Assembly: GCA_016125225.1 (NCBI GenBank)
Contig: WGME01000004.1
Coordinates: 186,001-250,000 of the forward strand
Source: a bacterium
GTDB lineage: Bacteria > Planctomycetota > Planctomycetia > Planctomycetales > Planctomycetaceae
DNA length: 64,000 nt
Direction: 5' to 3'
Of this stretch, positions 12,830-24,492 are shown in pieces. Positions within the stretch are counted from its first letter, which is position 1. Every line of letters starts with the position of its first letter. The notes beneath the pieces are model-generated. The model worked only from the letters and a program-made list of their open reading frames with translations, made no database searches and was not told the DNA's origin. Made by a program: the position numbers and the translations under genes.

Positions 12830-13408
12830 TCAATCGAACACTCCGGGGGGAGGGCCGTGAATGAAGGGTAATTCTGGGAACTGCTGGCGGGGCGGTTCAC
12901 ACAGATAGTACCGGGCGGATGACCACGGCCAATCGGTCGCTTGAGTACACAAACCTCGATGGACAGGATTCTGATGGATGTAGTCGATGGCGGCCGTGAT
13001 GGCTGGGGGACTGAAGAAATTCCGATCAAAACCACCCCCTTCCTGCCAGAAACGGAAACAGGTTTTACCGGGACGTTCTTGAACGGTCAGATTTGCGATC
13101 AACGGAGAGTTTCGGTCGATCAGAATCTGTTTGATGACTTTCGAAAAGGGCTGCTTGATCCGGGCCAGATAACGACCGAACTGTGGCTCGGCCGATCGGG
13201 GATTCGTCAGCACGTGGAGGTGTTCGGGCATGAACACGAAAGCCACCAGATCAAACTGCTCAAGTCGCCCGGCCTCTTCAATCGTTCGAGAGAGCTGTTC
13301 CTGCCAAGTGTCGTTGGTGAGCAAGGCCCTTCGTTGATAGCACGAGAAGGTGAACTCGTGCAGATGTCCCGGCTCGTGGTAGTACTTGACCTGCTTCCGA
13401 TGAGGCAT
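12830..13408 (-). CDS. REP-associated tyrosine transposase (IS200-like Y1 family)
   Basis: This 192-residue protein has the Y1 transposase fold signatures: HEFTFSCYQRRALL at the N-terminus, the HUH-type metal site in FMPEHLHVL, and YIHQNPVHRGLC followed by WPWSSARYY at the C-terminus. It is a single-strand endonuclease family that acts on REP hairpins. The start at MPHRKQVKYYHEPGHLHEF fits the family; the frame continues upstream only through the flanking repeat. No frameshift is visible, so it is probably active or recently so. It sits exactly between two inverted REP-like hairpins, the layout expected of a REP/RAYT unit, and separates nrdJ from the PPC gene. Confidence 0.92.
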   Translation of the reverse strand: MPHRKQVKYYHEPGHLHEFTFSCYQRRALLTNDTWQEQLSRTIEEAGRLEQFDLVAFVFMPEHLHVLTNPRSAEPQFGRYLARIKQPFSKVIKQILIDRNSPLIANLTVQERPGKTCFRFWQEGGGFDRNFFSPPAITAAIDYIHQNPVHRGLCTQATDWPWSSARYYLCEPPRQQFPELPFIHGPPPGVFD

Positions 13409-13454
13409 CGGTTGTTCTCCCCGTGGAGGGGAAGCATACCGGCTTGATTGTTTC

Positions 13455-13483
13455 TCGGCACTGGCAGAGCCAGTGGCACACAA
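13455..13483. repeat. REP-like palindrome, right copy flanking the transposase
   Basis: A 29-nt element, GGCACTGGC-AGA-GCCAGTGGC plus flanks. Its reverse complement equals the left copy at 12795-12823 except for one loop base (TCT versus TTT). Confidence 0.85.
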
Positions 13484-15694: not shown

Positions 15695-18157
15695 TCAACG
15701 CACAAACAAAAACGCTTTGCTGTTGAGCAGTGCCCACAGCAGGTCTTCGTAGCCTTCTTTCGGCGACGGGTAGTCTTTCACCAACTGCTCGGCCGAGGAG
15801 ATTTCGTTCGTGGTCGCCGGGCGGTTGAGCGTGACGAGATACAACTCGTTCACGATCTCGGCGTGCGGCTTCTTTTCTTCCAGCAACTTGGCCACGCGGC
15901 TCGATTTGTCGGCGATCTTGTTGGTGATGATGTCGCCATTCAGCGTGTGCAACGCTTGGGCGAGATTCGGGTCGGGTGCCCGTTCGCATTCACACACGCT
16001 GACACGCCGGGGTTTGGCGAAGGTGTTCAGGAAATAATCCGGGTACTCGGCGTCGGGGATTTCGATCGCCCGTGTGCCGAGCGGCAGGTCTTTGAATTTC
16101 GTCTGTGAGCCGGAGGCATAATCGATGGCGTCGAGCAGCGGTTCAGCCGGTAACCGCTTCACCAGGAAGTGGCTGTAGAACCGCGTGTCGGCGAGATTGC
16201 TCGACGTCGGTTGCGAATCGAGTTGGTACAACCGGCTCGACATGATTGCCCGGATCAGATGCTTCAGGTTGTAACCACTCTGCACGAAGTCATCCGACAA
16301 CGCTCGCAACAGGGCGGCATTGGAAGGCGGGTTGGTGGCCCGCATGTCATCGACCGGTTCGACCAGACCGCGACCGAGGAGGTAACTGATATACCGGTTG
16401 ACCACGGCATCGGCGAAGGCCCGGTTATCGGCGGAGGTCATCCAGTGGGCGAGGGCAATGCGGCGATCGAGCGGGTGGTCGGCCGGCTCGGCATCGAGTG
16501 GTTTCGGAGCCATGGTCTTGCCGGTGCGTGGTTGGCGGACTTCGCCGGAGGTCTTGGCGACCACCACGCGTTCACGTCCGAACAGACCGAACTCCTGACT
16601 ATTCTTGATCCCCACGCGAGCGAAGAAGGCGGCGAAGGCGAAGTAATCGTCCTGGCTGTACTTCTCGAACGGGTGATGATGACACTGGGCACATTGCAGT
16701 CGCACGCCGAGGAAGAGTTGCGCCGTTGATTCAGCCATGTCGTTCGGATTGGAATTCACCAGAAAATAGTTCGCCGGACCATTGGAATAGACCGACCCTT
16801 TGCCCTGCACCAGTTCTGCAACGAAGCGGTCGAAGGTGACATTATTGCGGAACTGTTCCTTGATCCAGTTGTGCAGCGACCACATGCCCTGGTCTTGCAG
16901 ATCGCGGCTGTTGGTCCGCAGCAGGTCCGACCATTTCAACGTCCAATAGGCGGCGTAGCGGTCGTTGTATTGTCCCTTGTGCGATGAGTCGGCGAAGCCG
17001 AGCAGTCGATCAATCCAGATCTGCCGTTTGTTGGGTTCGGTGGACGCGGTGAACTCGTTGATTTCTTCGAGCGTTGGTAATGTGCCGGTGGCGTCGAGGA
17101 AGATCCGTCGCAGGAAGGAGTGATCATCACACAACGGCGAGGGTTCGATGCCCAGTTCCTGGAACTTGGTGGCGGCGAGTTCATCGACGTAGTTCTGATT
17201 GGTCCAGCCGGTGAGTTGGAAGTTGGGTTGATAGGGGACCACAAAGGTGCAGACGTCGGCCTGACCTTCAAACCGCACCATCACCGCGGCCTGACCTTGC
17301 CCCTGCACATGGCAACGGCCTTCCTTATCAACCGTGACCACGCCTTCATCGAGCGTATCGAAACGGGCCCAGGCGGTGACATCGCGGACTTCACCGTCAG
17401 CGTATTCGGCGACCACGCGTAATTGCTGATCGATATTCGGCTCACAGACACGTTGCTGCGGCGAGACGGTTAACTTGGCAATCACACGTTCTTCCGTCTT
17501 GCCTTCAGGGCAACCGCCACGAATCCAGGCTTCCAAGGTGAGGTAATCACGCGAGCCAGGTTCGAGACGACGACCGCCACCGTGCGGGGTTTGCATGGTC
17601 GGTTTGCGGAGCAGCAGGCTTTGCTGCGGATCGAGCAGGTTGATGCGGCGGCCTTGCGCATCACGCACCATTGCCAACCGGTCCGCAGGGGGATCAAAGC
17701 CGAAGACCGAGAGCTTGAAGCCGCCCTGGCCATATTGTGCCGCATGGCACGCGCCGAGAGCACAGCCCGATTTGGTGAGGATCGGCCGGACTTCATCCAG
17801 AAAGCTGACCACCGGTTCCGCCACCACCCCAGAGACCGTCACGGGAACCGAAAGGGTTTTGTCATTCGCTGTGACCAGAATGGTGGTGGTCCCATCGGCT
17901 TTGGGGATCACGCGACCTGTGGCCGTGACATCGATAATCGCAGGATCTTGTGCGGAAAACTTCGCAATCACCGTCCAGTCAGATACACGGGAAATCGGTT
18001 CGTTTGATGCGGGGCGGACCAGCAGTTGCGTTTGTGCAAAGGCACTGGAGAGCGTTACCTCAGCCGGTTCTACGACGAGATCTTGAGCACGGGCCGTACT
18101 GGGGAGCATCCCAATGAAAACAGCAACGAACAGACATCCGGCCAGTGGACGGGTCAT
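15695..18157 (-). CDS. DUF1549/DUF1553 protein with Ig-like (BIG2) domains
   Basis: A typical 820-residue planctomycete exported protein. The start at 18157 is chosen for the signal peptide (MTRPLAGCLFVAVFIG, cleaved near ARAQ) and a GGAGG site 7 nt upstream. Domains in order: a BIG2-like domain (residues about 25-115); a cytochrome-like segment with the spaced CALGACH motif; a second BIG2-like domain; DUF1549 with LQCAQCHHHPFEKYSQDDYF; and DUF1553 with PSNAALLRALSDDFVQSGYN and the final 150 residues. Function unknown; family members are abundant and periplasmic or outer surface, possibly redox or polysaccharide-related. It forms a two-gene operon with the PPC gene. Confidence 0.93.
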   Translation of the reverse strand: MTRPLAGCLFVAVFIGMLPSTARAQDLVVEPAEVTLSSAFAQTQLLVRPASNEPISRVSDWTVIAKFSAQDPAIIDVTATGRVIPKADGTTTILVTANDKTLSVPVTVSGVVAEPVVSFLDEVRPILTKSGCALGACHAAQYGQGGFKLSVFGFDPPADRLAMVRDAQGRRINLLDPQQSLLLRKPTMQTPHGGGRRLEPGSRDYLTLEAWIRGGCPEGKTEERVIAKLTVSPQQRVCEPNIDQQLRVVAEYADGEVRDVTAWARFDTLDEGVVTVDKEGRCHVQGQGQAAVMVRFEGQADVCTFVVPYQPNFQLTGWTNQNYVDELAATKFQELGIEPSPLCDDHSFLRRIFLDATGTLPTLEEINEFTASTEPNKRQIWIDRLLGFADSSHKGQYNDRYAAYWTLKWSDLLRTNSRDLQDQGMWSLHNWIKEQFRNNVTFDRFVAELVQGKGSVYSNGPANYFLVNSNPNDMAESTAQLFLGVRLQCAQCHHHPFEKYSQDDYFAFAAFFARVGIKNSQEFGLFGRERVVVAKTSGEVRQPRTGKTMAPKPLDAEPADHPLDRRIALAHWMTSADNRAFADAVVNRYISYLLGRGLVEPVDDMRATNPPSNAALLRALSDDFVQSGYNLKHLIRAIMSSRLYQLDSQPTSSNLADTRFYSHFLVKRLPAEPLLDAIDYASGSQTKFKDLPLGTRAIEIPDAEYPDYFLNTFAKPRRVSVCECERAPDPNLAQALHTLNGDIITNKIADKSSRVAKLLEEKKPHAEIVNELYLVTLNRPATTNEISSAEQLVKDYPSPKEGYEDLLWALLNSKAFLFVR

Positions 18158-18356
18158 ATCAAACCTCCGCAGGTGGGATGAATCGACAGGGGGGACAAGG
18201 GGGGCGGGACAACGCATCAACCTGTATTATTGCGTCTTCCTCGGCGGAACGCTACCGGAATTTTGACTCGTTTTCCGGGGAACCGGGGAGGCTTTACGGA
18301 AAGGTTTCGCGTAAGATCGGCTCGTACCGTTTGCGTCTCATGGATGGTCCCCGCTG

Positions 18357-19097
18357 ATGCTCACCTTTCCCGCACCGTTTCCCTGGTGGTTGTGGATCCT
18401 TTCTGCCTTGTGGGTGGGCACGTTGTGTCTGCGGCGGTCATTGCCCGTGTCCTCGGAATGGAACCGCTGGTTGAACGGGCTCATCGTGGTTTACACGGCC
18501 CTGGTCCTCTACATGTCATTGAAAAGCACGTGGCCCCGGGACTGGTCGATGGGGTTGTGGACCTGGGGACTGTGTGCGGGTTTCAGCAGCGTGACGGCCC
18601 TGGGTGGAGCACTCTGGTCGATTTGTAGCGAATCCTCACGTTCTTGGCGCTGGGGCAGCGGGCTGGCCTATTTCGGGTTGTCTGGACTGTCGGCCTGTCT
18701 GGAGTCGTTCGAATTGGCAGTGATGGGGGTAGCGGCCTGTGGATTGATCCTGCTCGATTCGCAGTCAGCAGATCATGATTCTCAGTCGAGACCCGGCAGA
18801 TCATCTGCGGTCCTCGTGGCGATCGCCGCAACGCTGATGTGTGTGGCCTGGTTAGGGGTCGTGCAATACGGGTTGCGTGTGGAAGGGCAACGTCCCGGAC
18901 CGAGTCGCTGGTACACCGTAATCCCTGCTGTGGAGGCGGTGCAGCGCTGGCGGACGATGGCGGGTGATGCGCTTAGCGGCACGGCTGTGTCACCCACACA
19001 CATGATTCTAGCGGCTTCGGTTGTGATAGTCGTGTGGCTTGGTCGGCGGCATGGGATAACGAGCGAAGAGACCGCTGTCGGGGAGGTGGTCTCATGA
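18357..19097 (+). CDS. multi-pass membrane protein, possible divergent NuoJ-like subunit
   Basis: 246 residues and about seven membrane helices. I do not recognise it on its own. The middle segment SACLESFELAVMGVAACGLI aligns in position and pattern with the NuoJ block around LEIxxYxGAIMVLF. The C-terminal ALSGTAVSPTHMILAASVVI resembles the NuoJ end (LFGPYxLxxELASxLLL), followed by a basic cytoplasmic tail. An extra N-terminal unit of about 75 residues is not found in NuoJ (usually 160-200 residues). The gene is first in the five-gene operon, and its stop overlaps the next start as ATGA, as nuoJ-nuoK often do. The assignment leans heavily on gene order. Confidence 0.45.
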   Translation: MLTFPAPFPWWLWILSALWVGTLCLRRSLPVSSEWNRWLNGLIVVYTALVLYMSLKSTWPRDWSMGLWTWGLCAGFSSVTALGGALWSICSESSRSWRWGSGLAYFGLSGLSACLESFELAVMGVAACGLILLDSQSADHDSQSRPGRSSAVLVAIAATLMCVAWLGVVQYGLRVEGQRPGPSRWYTVIPAVEAVQRWRTMAGDALSGTAVSPTHMILAASVVIVVWLGRRHGITSEETAVGEVVS

Positions 19098-19426
19098 CGG
19101 AAGCTCAATGCTCCCTGATATTGATTGTTGCCGGGATGGTGGCGACTTTGGGGGGAGTCGCGTTGTGGATGACGGGATCTCGCATTGAACCCGCACGGAT
19201 GAGTGTGTTACTGGCCTTTGCATTGGCTGTGAGCTTGGTCGCTGTGGGACGCTGGCAGCAAACCGCCGCGGCCGATGTATTGAGCTGGTGGCTGATGTTG
19301 ATGGCCTTGCCCCTGCTCTGGCCGACCGCGACGTCGCCCGCAAAAACAGTGGATCACGAACGCCCACCCGAGGGGACCTTCCCGGCGGTGACCGCATTGC
19401 ACCAGGAGGCGTCAAGCGATGCCTGA
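19094..19426 (+). CDS. small three-helix membrane protein, possible NuoK-like subunit
   Basis: 110 residues with three membrane helices in the first 80, the size and topology of NuoK (about 100 residues). LILIVAGMVATLGGVALWM fits NuoK helix 1. The glutamates that NuoK uses for proton movement in helices 2 and 3 have no counterpart: helix 2 (MSVLLAFALAVSLVAVG) and helix 3 (LSWWLMLMALPLLW) contain no acidic residue. A hydrophilic tail of about 30 residues follows. ATG at 19094 overlaps the previous stop, and its own end overlaps the NuoL-like start by 8 nt, so translation is coupled. If it is not NuoK, it is an unknown small membrane protein. Confidence 0.45.
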   Translation: MTEAQCSLILIVAGMVATLGGVALWMTGSRIEPARMSVLLAFALAVSLVAVGRWQQTAAADVLSWWLMLMALPLLWPTATSPAKTVDHERPPEGTFPAVTALHQEASSDA

Positions 19427-21386
19427 GGCGTTGATCGGGGCATTGCTGGTAGTCCCACTGGTGGGGGCGTTGACAGCCGCATGGTTGCGACGCGGTTTGC
19501 AATCGTCGACCGTGCCAATTGGTCTCTGCGGCGTCGTGCTCTTGCAGTGGTGCGCAGTTCTGGGATGGCTGTCATGGGGGCAGGATGCGGATGTCCTCAC
19601 CTGGCCATTCCACAAGGCCGGTTCCACATATTCGTCGATCACAATGACGATCGATCTGACGCGGGCATTCGCACTGTTGACAACGGCGAGCGCGCTAGGG
19701 GCCGTATTGTGGTCGCCCTCCGAAAAACTGTGGTCGCTGTTTCAACACCGTTGCGGCTGGTGGGTGTTATGTCTGGCGAATTTGTTCTGGCTGAGTGATG
19801 ACCATCGGATCTCACTGCTGGCTCAGGCGGGACTTCTGGGCGTGGGGTGTCTCTGGGTGGCCTGGTCCTCGCCTCATGCCTCCGCTCCTGTGACGGCCCG
19901 TCAGATGTGGATCACGCTGACCTGTGGCGATGTGGTGTTATGGGCGATGGCGTTGTGGTGGTTTTTGCAGTTTCAAACAACCAGTTGGAGTGCAGGCTCG
20001 CGGCTGACTGACTGGCAGGGCTGGGCCGAGTCGGCTCCCGTCGTCGTCACCACGTGCGGACTTGCGTTATGGTGCGGCGTACTCGCAAGAGGCCTGCAGT
20101 TTCCGCTGGGGTCTCTGTGTGACCGCGTCAGCGAACTTGATGGCCGCGCGTGTGGATTGTTGTTCGGCATCATTCTGGCACCGATCGGCTGGCGCTACCT
20201 CAGCGCGGCGTCACCAGTCTTCTGGCTCTCACCGGAAAGTTATCATCTGGTGCAGGGGGCGGCGATGTTATCCGCCGGGTTATCGGCCTGGTTCAGTCTC
20301 TGCTCGGTCGATCCGCGGGTGAAACTGGCGTGGCTTGGCAGCTGGCAAGGGTCGTTCGTGATCGCCGCCTTATTGACCGATGCTGACACGGGACCCCGAC
20401 TCAGTTTACTGCTGTGGACATCGGGGCTGTGTGTGATCGCGGTCTGGTTCGGACTGTGGGTGACAGAATGCGATGGAGCAACAGCGTCAGCAGCCACATC
20501 GCCGGCCGAACACGAGTCGACGGTGGAGGAACCGGTGATCTTTTCTTTCACCAGTTGGCAGTCGGGTCGGCAGCAGAGTTTTTCATGGTCGGCGATGTCA
20601 CGCACGCTGCAGCAGGCGGGCAACCCGTTCGGGCGCACGGAAGCGGCCCCTGCGGTTCCTCGACACGTGACGGCGGTCGGAGGCCCCGGCATGGCCACCT
20701 GCCTGTCTCTGTTGTTGGCGCTGGGACCGCTGGCGGTGTGTGCGGCCTGGCCTGTGGGGACAGTCTTGACGAACAGGCCCGATGAATCAAAAGCCATCGC
20801 AAGCTCCCCGATGTCGGAGGTTTCTCTGGGTTCGTTGCTCGCACTGACAGCCGGGTTATGGGCATTGACGCGGTTGGTGATGACTACGCAACGGGCAACG
20901 ATTCCGGCATCAGCTCGGCTGTGGTGTCTGGTGGGAGTGTTGCCACTGGTTCCCTGGCTGGTCTTTGGAGTGATTGCGGAGGTCCATCCCGGTTGGGCCC
21001 GCGTATCTCCCAACCTGCAGACCATGGCGACAGGCATCGCGGTTCTGGTCGGCATCGTTTGCGGCTGGGCCGGGGGATCGTCAACCGGTGCCAACGTCCG
21101 CCGGACGAGTTTCGAAACACTGAAGCGTCTGGGACAACGACGATTGTATGTCTCGCAGTTGTGGTTGCTGGGACTCAATCTGCCGTTGCGGGCAGCGGCT
21201 CAACTGTTGCGATTTCTCGATTGGTTTCTGATTGATGGTGTCTTGTTGAAGGGGATGGGTTGGCTGTTGAGCCAGAGCCGCCGATCGGATGACGATTTGC
21301 ATCCTCACGAGGCAGGGTTCTATGCTCTGTCGGTCGGGATGGGAGCCTTGGCCGTGGCCTTCACGTTAATGTGGCTGTCCCAATAA
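19419..21386 (+). CDS. divergent NuoL-like (complex I/antiporter-type) membrane subunit
   Basis: 655 residues with many membrane helices. Homology to NuoL shows in the order of motifs: LLGVGCLWVAW (NuoL WEGVGLCSYLL), CGDVVLW (VGDVFLA), ARGLQFPLGSL (GKSAQLPLQTW), SPESYHLVQGAAML, and a C-terminal WFLIDGVLLKGMGWLL plus EAGFYALSVGMGALAV, matching the lateral-helix end of NuoL. By my alignment the key proton-path residues are changed: E144 to Leu140, K229 to Arg224, H254 to Phe249. A hydrophilic insert of about 75 residues (near 350-425) interrupts the membrane part. Predicted location is the inner membrane; proton pumping by the usual route looks impaired or altered. Confidence 0.7.
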   Translation: MPEALIGALLVVPLVGALTAAWLRRGLQSSTVPIGLCGVVLLQWCAVLGWLSWGQDADVLTWPFHKAGSTYSSITMTIDLTRAFALLTTASALGAVLWSPSEKLWSLFQHRCGWWVLCLANLFWLSDDHRISLLAQAGLLGVGCLWVAWSSPHASAPVTARQMWITLTCGDVVLWAMALWWFLQFQTTSWSAGSRLTDWQGWAESAPVVVTTCGLALWCGVLARGLQFPLGSLCDRVSELDGRACGLLFGIILAPIGWRYLSAASPVFWLSPESYHLVQGAAMLSAGLSAWFSLCSVDPRVKLAWLGSWQGSFVIAALLTDADTGPRLSLLLWTSGLCVIAVWFGLWVTECDGATASAATSPAEHESTVEEPVIFSFTSWQSGRQQSFSWSAMSRTLQQAGNPFGRTEAAPAVPRHVTAVGGPGMATCLSLLLALGPLAVCAAWPVGTVLTNRPDESKAIASSPMSEVSLGSLLALTAGLWALTRLVMTTQRATIPASARLWCLVGVLPLVPWLVFGVIAEVHPGWARVSPNLQTMATGIAVLVGIVCGWAGGSSTGANVRRTSFETLKRLGQRRLYVSQLWLLGLNLPLRAAAQLLRFLDWFLIDGVLLKGMGWLLSQSRRSDDDLHPHEAGFYALSVGMGALAVAFTLMWLSQ

Positions 21387-21469: not shown

Positions 21470-23095
21470 GTGTGGGAGACGATCGAAACGTCGGGACCGC
21501 TGTGGCTGGCCCTGCTGGTGATTTCGCCAGTCTTGGGCGCCCTTGCCACGCTTTGGGCGGGACGCTCTTCCAACACGGTGGCCCGACAGACGGCGATCGC
21601 GCAAGCCAGTGTCACGGCTTTGCTCGCGACCATTCTGATCAGCCTGTCGGGACAAGTGGCATCAGGCGATACCGAAGCAACGGGGCCACAAGGTCTGCAA
21701 ATTCCCTATTGGTCCTGGACGGTTGATGCCCCCGCATCGCCGCCGTGGTCGATCGAGGTAGCTCTCTCCTTGGGTATGGAATCTGTGAATCGTCCGCTCT
21801 TGCTCGCGGTCCCCTGGCTGGCGGTCGCGAGTTTGATTCTGACATCGCCGCAACGTCCGCCCTTGTTCTATGCTGGCGTGTTGTGCGTGGAAGCGTTGGC
21901 ATTGATCCACTTTGCCGCTCAGGATGCCGTCACCTGCCTGGGGTCGGCCGAATTATTGATCGGTCTGTGCTGGTGGCTAACCGGGTGGTATGGCAGCAGC
22001 GAGCGACGAGCGGCGGCCCAGCGTTATGCCGCCATAGCCTGGCTGGGCCAGCGACTCTGGTGGTTTGCCTTGCTGGCGTTGGCTATGGCTGCGGTGTGGG
22101 TGCAACTGGAACTGCGGTCGTCTCCCACCGCCATCGAATTCGGCTGGTCGCAACTAGCGGTTCTGTTGCCGCGGTTCGTCTCGCGCTACATCTCCAGTTT
22201 TGAATACTGGGCCGTGACTTCATCGCTGATCGTCATGGTCTTTGCGGCGGGTTTGTTCATCCGCAGTGCATTGGTTCCCTGCCATGGGTGGTTGCCGTTG
22301 TGGATTCAGGAAGCCCCGCCGGCTTTGGTGATTCTGCAAACAGGCGGATTGGGGTTAATGGCCGGGGCATTGTACCTGCACACGTTGGCCCCATTGTGGG
22401 CGGTGCAACCCGTCCCCTTTTCCTGGGGCCTGTATGGCGGCGCGATCACCGCGATCGTGGGGGGATTCCTCGCCCTGGCACAAACCGATTTGCGAAAGTT
22501 TGTGACCTACGCCTGGCTCAGCCGACATGGCTGGGGTTGGATGGGCATCAGTCTGGCCACGGCCGCCGATGTCCGTGCGGGTTGGCTTTCCTTGTGTGGA
22601 TCGGCTTGGGAATTTACGGCCGTGTTTTGTGCCGTCCTGCTGCTCGAAAGCCGCTACAACACTCGAGAAATTGATGCCTTTGGCGGGCTGTCGCGCAAGT
22701 GCCCACGACTCGCTGCCGTAAGTTGCCTTGTTGCCTGGTGGGCGGTCGTCAGTCCGTGGTTGCCGTGGTCGCAGGACATGTGGGCCTGGCAAGCGACATT
22801 GCTGGGGATCGCTCCGGGGTGTTGGCTGATGGGCATCGTGGGGCAACTGTTGGTGGCTTGGTCCACCGTCTGGTTGTTGCAACGAATTTACTTCGGCCGC
22901 TTGCGGGAACCACTTCCCGACCCCCGTTTTTTCACGGCGAGTTCACCGCAACCCGAGACTCCCTCATGGCACGCTCCTCCGGTATTGGATGTGGTGATTG
23001 ATGACCTAACGCCCCTGGAAATCTTCGCGGTCCTCATTCCAGCCGGTTTGAACTTTGTCATCTGCAGCGGAGTGCTGGAGGGCATCGCACGATGA
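21470..23095 (+). CDS. divergent NuoM-like (complex I/antiporter-type) membrane subunit
   Basis: 541 residues, about 14 membrane helices. SAELLIGLCWWLTGWYG keeps the glutamate equivalent to NuoM E144 (here E161). VPCHGWLPLWIQEAP matches the conserved PLHGWLPDAHSQAP loop, and the lysine before it (K234 in NuoM) is Arg265. ALAQTDLRKFVTYAWLSRHG matches AFAQTDIKRLIAYTSVSHMG. The helix that carries K265 in NuoM (here ILQTGGLGLMAGALYL) has no lysine. The start is GTG at 21470 after an 84-nt gap, the only sizeable gap in the operon; its stop overlaps the next gene as ATGA. This is the best-preserved member of the set. Confidence 0.75.
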   Translation: MWETIETSGPLWLALLVISPVLGALATLWAGRSSNTVARQTAIAQASVTALLATILISLSGQVASGDTEATGPQGLQIPYWSWTVDAPASPPWSIEVALSLGMESVNRPLLLAVPWLAVASLILTSPQRPPLFYAGVLCVEALALIHFAAQDAVTCLGSAELLIGLCWWLTGWYGSSERRAAAQRYAAIAWLGQRLWWFALLALAMAAVWVQLELRSSPTAIEFGWSQLAVLLPRFVSRYISSFEYWAVTSSLIVMVFAAGLFIRSALVPCHGWLPLWIQEAPPALVILQTGGLGLMAGALYLHTLAPLWAVQPVPFSWGLYGGAITAIVGGFLALAQTDLRKFVTYAWLSRHGWGWMGISLATAADVRAGWLSLCGSAWEFTAVFCAVLLLESRYNTREIDAFGGLSRKCPRLAAVSCLVAWWAVVSPWLPWSQDMWAWQATLLGIAPGCWLMGIVGQLLVAWSTVWLLQRIYFGRLREPLPDPRFFTASSPQPETPSWHAPPVLDVVIDDLTPLEIFAVLIPAGLNFVICSGVLEGIAR

Positions 23096-24492
23096 TGCTC
23101 CCCGTGGGAATTTGGATCACATTAGCAGCGGCCGCGTTGTGGTTTCTGCTGCCGACCCGCTGGCACACACGTGGGGTTCGATTATTCTTGAACCTCGCCG
23201 TGGTAGCAGGAGTCGTTACCCCGCTGGTGTGGCCCACCGCGACGATGGACTCTGCTTGGCTGTGGGGGGCGGCAGCCGTGTGGTGGCTTTGCCATCAATT
23301 CGCCGCGGGATCAGACCGTGCCTTATCCACTCAGGTCTGGGGACGGTACACGGCCGTGCTGGCGGGTCTGCAGGGGTTGGTGGTCGCTGAGGATCTAGTG
23401 ACCTGGGTTCTCGCTTTGGAACTCACACGTTTCGGCACCGCTATTGACAGTGATGATTCGCAGGAACTGGCCGACCACAGTTGCCGTTGGCTGCTGGTGG
23501 CTGGTGTGGTCGGTTGGCTCGGAGTGACCGGCACGATCTCGTTCTCAGAATCTCGGCAAATTCTCGATCTGACCTATGCCGTCCCCGTGGGAGGATCGGC
23601 GTTGGGACGGCCGTCGATTGTGCTGGTGGGTTCCCTCGCCCTCATGGTCTGCGGGTTGATCGCTCCAGTCTTGTTGACCGCCTGCCGTCCTGTGCCCACG
23701 ACATCGCCTTCCATCTGGTGGTCGTCGCTGGCAGGTCGCGAACTCGCGGCTGGTGCGGCCTTGATGGTATGGCTCAAGGGGGGACTGACGGGTCTGGAAA
23801 CCCCGGTGGTTGTGCTGGTGATGGTTGCCGTGTTGTGTGCCTGGGGGTTTGCCGTTCGCAATCTGGCAGACGGACAACGTCTCGATTTTAACCTCACGGC
23901 GATCAGCTTAGTCACGTGGAGCATCTGGCTCCTTACGACGATCTGCTTCCTTGGGAAGCCGACCTTTGTGGAAACGCCGGGAGCTTTGGTGACCAGCCTG
24001 ATTCCCGATCGGCTCATCGCGATGACGGTCTTCCATTGGACACTGGCCCAAGGTGGACTGTTACTCGGTACGCTCTGTTTGCTCCTCGACCGACCCGGAC
24101 CGTGGTATCGCGATCAGTTGCGTGGGTTAGGCCAACTGGCACCGCAGCGCGCCGTGCTGTTTTTGGTGACGTTGGCGAGTCTGACCGGGTTCCCCCTCAC
24201 TTGGGGATTCTGGACGCAACTTGTCTGCGGATTGTCTTTGCTTGGAATCCATGTCGCGGGCAATAACGATCTTGTCCTGTCGCACTTTGGGTTACGCAGT
24301 CTGGCCATCATCTCCGGACTCATGTTGGCTGCGACCTTGGCTTGTGGTGGGAGAATGGCCCGTCTGCTGATTCTCGAATCACCCGTCGGTCGTGACCTGC
24401 CCGCTCACCGATTCTGGCACATCACCTGGGCCGTTGCCATTTCGTTGGCACTCGTGATTGTCGGAGTTGTGCCCCGGCTGTTACACCCCTAG
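23092..24492 (+). CDS. divergent NuoN-like membrane subunit
   Basis: 466 residues, about 12-13 membrane helices. VTWVLALELTRFGT lines up with the NuoN block FLGIELISLPLFG, keeping the glutamate (E110), and RAVLFLVTLASLTGFPLTWG matches the NuoN late motif MTVMMLSLAGIPMTLGF. The NuoN PFHLWTPD loop with its preceding lysine is not recognisable. It is the last gene of the operon, in the place nuoN takes in nuo operons. No terminator is evident in the 170 nt that follow. Confidence 0.65.
   Translation: MMLPVGIWITLAAAALWFLLPTRWHTRGVRLFLNLAVVAGVVTPLVWPTATMDSAWLWGAAAVWWLCHQFAAGSDRALSTQVWGRYTAVLAGLQGLVVAEDLVTWVLALELTRFGTAIDSDDSQELADHSCRWLLVAGVVGWLGVTGTISFSESRQILDLTYAVPVGGSALGRPSIVLVGSLALMVCGLIAPVLLTACRPVPTTSPSIWWSSLAGRELAAGAALMVWLKGGLTGLETPVVVLVMVAVLCAWGFAVRNLADGQRLDFNLTAISLVTWSIWLLTTICFLGKPTFVETPGALVTSLIPDRLIAMTVFHWTLAQGGLLLGTLCLLLDRPGPWYRDQLRGLGQLAPQRAVLFLVTLASLTGFPLTWGFWTQLVCGLSLLGIHVAGNNDLVLSHFGLRSLAIISGLMLAATLACGGRMARLLILESPVGRDLPAHRFWHITWAVAISLALVIVGVVPRLLHP

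Follow-up and report, generated by a model that had tools for sequence, protein, structure and literature searches.

The locus described here raises the question of what a NuoL-like protein is for once the residues of its proton path are gone. The proton path of complex I shows strong conservation. Mrp and DAB2, relatives that lack a redox part, are known as transporters. An earlier note on this DNA proposed that the protein, here called L, has been retained for its structure rather than as a pump, or that it pumps by a different route.

The window is the whole stretch of DNA that was analysed, 64,000 nucleotides (G000:C37:186001-250000) of a planctomycete genome of 6.35 Mb. L is encoded by the third of five co-directional genes, all five hydrophobic (Table 1), and its reading frame is intact across all 655 residues. 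Genes 1 to 3 overlap each other at their stop and start codons, as do genes 4 and 5. The start of gene 2 was placed at an ATG that overlaps the stop of gene 1 (ATGA). The GC content of the operon is not unusual.

The flank upstream of the operon is on the other strand and encodes PSCyt2/PSD1 and PPC-domain proteins. The one adjoining the operon (15695-18220, − strand) is a PSCyt2/PSD1 planctomycete paralogous family protein with a Big_2 domain. An ORF of 217 aa at 12830-13483 (− strand) looks by eye like a small transposase of the REP-associated type. Downstream of the operon there is an RNase D gene.

Table 1 Features of the five-gene operon, with positions counted from the first nucleotide of the window.
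Feature	Position	Strand	Basis
Gene 1, NuoJ position, 246 aa membrane protein	18357..19097	+	Position and similarity
Gene 2, NuoK position, 110 aa, three hydrophobic stretches	19094..19426	+	Sequence; position
Shine-Dalgarno-like AGGAGG, ten bases upstream of L	19404..19409	+	Sequence
L, putatively channel-dead NuoL-like protein, 655 aa, ATG at 19419	19419..21386	+	ORF; profile; residue alignments
AGLL, residues 137-140, site of lost E144	19827..19838	+	MAFFT, hhalign
Asp171, equivalent of D178 of NuoL, kept	19929..19931	+	MAFFT, hhalign
Arg224 replacing K229, RxxxFP motif	20088..20090	+	MAFFT, hhalign
Phe249 replacing H254	20163..20165	+	MAFFT, hhalign
Hydrophilic stretch, residues 350-425, in place of the TM11-TM12 connection	20466..20693	+	Alignments
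Lateral-helix region, residues ~565-622, least decayed part of L	21111..21284	+	Alignment, conservation
NuoM-like protein, 541 aa	21470..23095	+	PF00361 57 bits; TIGR01972 101.6 bits
NuoN-like protein, 466 aa, start overlaps M stop	23092..24492	+	NCBIfam NuoN E=1.2e-5, 24.5 bits

As a single sequence, L has no match in Pfam, NCBIfam or PDB. It fails the curated NuoL and Proton_antipo_M models, while the profile of its clade does match NuoL. This profile, built from alignment A3 with relatives from eight genomes, is therefore needed to identify the protein. Its top match in PDB is E. coli NuoL (E=1.1e-31), with weaker matches to MrpA (7qru_A, E=1.2e-17), DabB2 (E=2.3e-12) and then M and N subunits. 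L has 16 hydrophobic segments, and 14-17 are predicted in full-length clade members. AlphaFold models of L came out at pLDDT 42 and 41, from shallow alignments of 4 and 5 sequences, scores too low for superposition on NuoL.

Every antiporter subunit is described as combining an ion pair with two lysines, one central and one distal (Glu can take the place of the distal one), and a bridging histidine between them in the path; D400 of NuoL is the proposed exit (PMC9271201). Two of the losses claimed earlier are reproduced both by MAFFT and by an independent hhalign profile-profile alignment (E=6.4e-70): K229 has become Arg224, and H254 Phe249. E144 had been read as Leu140, anchored on a GVG motif. 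The position is indeed non-acidic in every register, but it falls on Ala137 with MAFFT and on Gly138 with hhalign; the local sequence is LLAQAGLLGVGC.

The ion pair D178/K229 of NuoL is Asp171/Arg224 in L. According to hhalign, the central K342 is replaced by V342, the bridging H334 and H338 by T334 and C338, and K305 by R300, while D303 is kept as D298. The distal K399 corresponds to L429 and the exit D400 to S430, in a region where the alignment is weak. All key proton-path residues are gone or altered, except the equivalents of D178 and D303.

In the 22 clade members where these residues were read, K229, H254 and K342 are lost from every protein and E144 from all but one, with Arg at the K229 position in 19. 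The eight core members show identical losses (MAFFT). Canonical planctomycete NuoLs retain the channel residues (one with D400E), and because the 22 lose them together, the losses go beyond chance. When one row of the residue tables, ex_L073, proved to be an ORF antisense to a canonical nuoL, it was taken out of the tree.

The suggestion of pumping by a different route gains no support from the sequences. The predicted helix cores of L hold zero Lys in 20 of the 22 members, and the profile-profile alignment places no substitute acid or Lys at the channel positions.

In complex I, mutations of L_K229 led to loss of function, and E144 substitutions had effects (PMC3046159). When NuoL was studied outside complex I, in B. 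subtilis, E144Q and K229A left growth and sodium levels almost unchanged (PMC4938563), so the loss of E144 and K229 does not strictly rule out ion transport. Pumping by L along the usual route is very improbable.

The neighbouring genes have decayed as well. Gene 1 itself has no Pfam NuoJ match. It shares 34% identity over 194 aa with the gene upstream of L in G001, and the gene at the same position in relative G025 matches PF00499 NuoJ at 44 bits. By position and similarity, gene 1 would be a degenerate NuoJ-like gene. Gene 2 matches no family; its position and similarity suggest that it is NuoK-like. In the alignment, E36 and E72 of NuoK are missing from all eight degenerate K proteins, that of the window among them, and present in 4/4 canonical ones.

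M scores below the TIGR01972 cut-off of 263.8 bits. M and N had been said to keep the key glutamate, which is correct as far as the TM5 Glu goes: it is present as E161 in M (E144 equivalent) and as the E133 equivalent in N. Other channel residues are lost from both, however. In M, K234 is Arg, K265 is Leu/Met and E407 is absent, and N is without K217, K247 and K395. The M proteins of relatives keep K265 in 12/14 cases, E144 in 6/14 and K234 in 4/14, with K234 retained in genus g56. As read from these alignments, the proton axis of this window is broken across the operon (L, M, N and K), and not in L alone.

By profile score and genus membership, degenerate L is found in 36 of 170 family genomes, across 12 genera. 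Among class genomes outside the family, none scored >300 bits with the L profile. In a joint tree, the 22 L proteins form one clade (100/100) nested in type-1 NuoL, and the M tree gives the same picture (93/95, inside type-1 Nuo). Placed one at a time, the L proteins scatter among type-1 branches, and 11/14 M proteins join the same type-1 lineage. A single origin of degenerate L is likely, with long-branch attraction a possible cause of the grouping. L is 26% identical between two congeners, versus 68% for canonical NuoL between congeners, and its tip branches are ~10x longer.

Gene content differs between lineages. The J-K-L-M-N order of the window is found in others too. G025 has H-J-K-L-M-N, where H clears the PF00146 cut-off of 27 bits by a narrow margin (28 bits). 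An H-like gene is also in the G175 and G176 clusters. The H proteins of these three early members are without the quinone-site loop. In g56, J, K, L and M are joined by a hydrophobic gene that occupies the place of H. The g34 and G001 clusters consist of J-K-L, and in g31 and G026 L has no adjoining M or N. Clusters of relatives possibly include a small NuoA-like gene as well. A search of the cluster flanks for a conserved soluble partner gene found none.

In three carriers, the L gene has an in-frame stop: TAG in G022 (L033, 6839-8776), TGA in G093 and TAA in G097. Several genomes are MAGs. These stops are either assembly errors or pseudogenes.

Selection was measured in relatives outside the window's own genus. 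In all close pairs tested, dN/dS of L is 0.19-0.26, which means that L is under purifying selection there. The other cluster genes have values of 0.24 (J), 0.23 (K), 0.12-0.18 (M) and 0.15 (N), and flanking genes 0.05-0.11. The cluster genes in these relatives are constrained but relaxed.

This constraint is spread unevenly over L. With approximate helix borders taken from NuoL, TM5 scores 0.27, the TM7-8 loop 0.15, TM8 0.21, TM11 0.18 and TM12 0.26 in column conservation relative to canonical NuoL. Over TM5, the TM7-8 loop, TM8 and TM10-13 the range is 0.15-0.28, versus 0.79 in the lateral helix. By sequence, HL and TM16 have their counterparts in residues 565-655, which upholds the earlier observation that the lateral-helix C-terminus remains. 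P589 of L corresponds to P552 of NuoL and is invariant in the clade. When the C-terminus of NuoL was truncated in E. coli, the complex was scarce and fragile (PMC3274701), which supports a structural role for this part of NuoL.

The hydrophilic insert of about 75 residues noticed before is present as a stretch, but it replaces the TM11-TM12 connection, and only ~30 aa are extra on balance. The distance from K342 to K399 is 57 residues in E. coli NuoL and 87 in L (hhalign). The L of congener G001 has a comparable stretch.

The reading that fits best, at a probability of roughly 60 per cent, is that L has a structural task, clamping a separate membrane assembly that is free of redox subunits. 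By its gene content, the operon descends from the membrane arm of complex I, has no redox genes and apparently encodes dead channels. The set would have started as a type-1 nuo operon, its probable ancestor. All redox subunits would have been lost first, with the proton axis decaying afterwards. The K229/D178 ion pair may then have turned into a fixed Arg/Asp pair. L would conduct no protons, since it has also lost both lysines (central and distal), its bridging histidines and the exit residue. Two features would survive: the fold of many helices, and the lateral helix that NuoL uses to clamp M and N. The set would persist as a separate membrane assembly, with L acting as its clamp.

For L itself, the idea of a structural subunit that no longer pumps agrees with the collapse of conservation in the channel helices, the kept lateral helix and the low dN/dS. 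It falls short in that the oddity is a whole orphan arm, and not one subunit of a working complex I. We infer that the five gene products form one assembly, in which L would be purely structural and which would carry out neither pumping nor transport. The firmer claim is that L does not use the usual route to pump. That the assembly has no task beyond holding structure stands slightly short of even odds.

Several points weigh against the clamp. The M of relatives often has K265, and sometimes E144 or K234, and could still conduct there. E144Q and K229A NuoL are each nearly normal outside complex I, in B. subtilis (PMC4938563). L without adjacent M and N in g34, g31 and G026 fits a clamp of M and N poorly, and three relatives have the in-frame stop.

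A comparison with known systems shows what else the set could be. L is like the NuoL/ND5 of complex I (E. coli, and type-1 on contig C16 of the own genome) in fold class by profile, in the number of hydrophobic segments, and in having the lateral helix and last TM. The J-K-L-M-N gene order is also that of complex I. It differs from complex I in the proton-path residues, of which only the D178 and D303 equivalents are intact, in a cluster without hydrophilic subunits, and in evolving ~10x faster.

Like Mrp (MrpA/MrpD), the set has NuoL/M/N/K/J homologues in the membrane and no redox arm. Unlike this cluster, Mrp subunits retain Glu and Lys (PMC4938563). Mrp also has a long MrpA (~800 aa, with a C-terminal MrpB-like domain) and MrpE/F/G; L has only 655 aa, and the five ORFs include no MrpE/F/G-type genes. 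The clade profile matches MrpA less well than NuoL (1.2e-17 vs 1.1e-31).

DAB2 is similar in that DabB2 is a NuoL-class protein outside complex I, without quinone chemistry. In DAB2, DabB is paired with the soluble DabA. Nothing of the DabA kind (DUF2309) is among the neighbouring ORFs examined, and the DabB2 profile match (E=2.3e-12) is also weaker.

Given these relatives, the orphan arm could be a repurposed transporter, which moves an ion or small solute without redox drive and owes a new selectivity (for an anion, say) to Arg224 and to what is left of the M residues. Mrp and DAB complexes likewise function with no NADH oxidation. The purifying selection, the Arg that 19/22 have in place of K229, the retention of K265 in 12/14 M proteins and of K234 in g56, and the near-functional E144Q and K229A NuoL outside complex I (PMC4938563) would all suit such a role. 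No conserved polar chain has replaced the lost one, however; conservation in L is among its lowest in the channel helices, and the predicted helix cores are almost without Lys. M of the window has also lost K234 and K265, and no conserved soluble partner is found beside the clusters. Transport is therefore an unlikely explanation.

The window's genome has canonical complex I genes away from the cluster. The window cluster has no NuoB, C, D, I or quinone-site NuoH. On other contigs of the same genome there are NuoH with L/M/N (C16 and C27), NuoD (C16 and C36) and NuoB-family/PF01058 matches (C16 and C41). C16 (L027) has a type-1 operon with a typical NuoL of 708 aa; the type-2 set on C27 (L028) includes a NuoL of 836 aa and a NuoH of 444 aa.

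The orphan J-K-L(-M-N) might thus be an accessory that docks on, or replaces part of, a type-1 or type-2 membrane arm. Fitting this, the tested carriers G000, G001, G003, G026 and those of g34, g24 and g31 all have canonical complex I genes, and the lateral helix is the best-kept part of L. The idea is strained by genus g56, where none of 15 carriers has a NuoD or NuoH match; nine of these are single-contig and 99-100% complete. In that genus, the cluster is therefore independent of complex I. The cluster is also unlinked to nuo operons, and K is without both axis glutamates, which leaves an accessory role improbable.

A sole NuoB-family match in 14/15 g56 carriers was considered as a sign of a hidden complex I. 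Two such loci were read (L116 in G083 and L117 in G075). Both are far from the cluster and look like soluble [NiFe] hydrogenase operons with hyp genes, in which the NuoB-family match would be the small hydrogenase subunit. This assignment was made by sequence motifs at the loci of two genomes.

Neutral or near-neutral decay of a redundant nuo copy, with frames not yet broken, would explain a dN/dS 2-4x that of neighbouring genes, L tip branches ~10x those of canonical NuoL, the in-frame stop in 3/36 genomes and the differing shrinkage of gene content between lineages, but is very improbable with dN/dS far below 1 in every tested L pair (including pairs with dS >0.7), open frames in the other 33 carriers of 12 genera and an operon structure maintained by start-stop overlaps.

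In this lineage, selection maintains the fold and the lateral helix although the whole proton path has been abandoned, and the two roles of NuoL, structure and pumping, thus come apart. The clade would supply natural 'dead channel' controls, and it raises the question of other uses for the NuoL fold. Tentatively, the membrane arm may have been exapted for a task outside bioenergetics, for instance as a scaffold or organiser of the membrane, in a complex that has neither a redox part nor live channels. Such a complex would have been kept while it diverged to ~20% identity, and would outlive complex I.

A practical caution is that a 'nuoL' or 'nuoM' annotation in planctomycetes does not imply complex I. 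A search of open-licence papers found nothing describing such a gene set. In Stieleria strain SV_7m_r, nuoL is reported to be annotated alone and the rest of complex I is said to be absent (PMC11588811). Going by that annotation, it is possibly the same gene as degenerate L.

Some minor observations remain. Scanning genome contigs with the lateral-helix alignment gave three loci, and two runs of canonical NuoL scans over viral contigs gave zero and one locus. Contig C26 of the own genome (L029, 6220-12349) encodes a soluble protein of 1080 aa, after which come two genes of the antiporter family (463 and 502 aa), and is perhaps a DAB-like or other NuoL-derived system.
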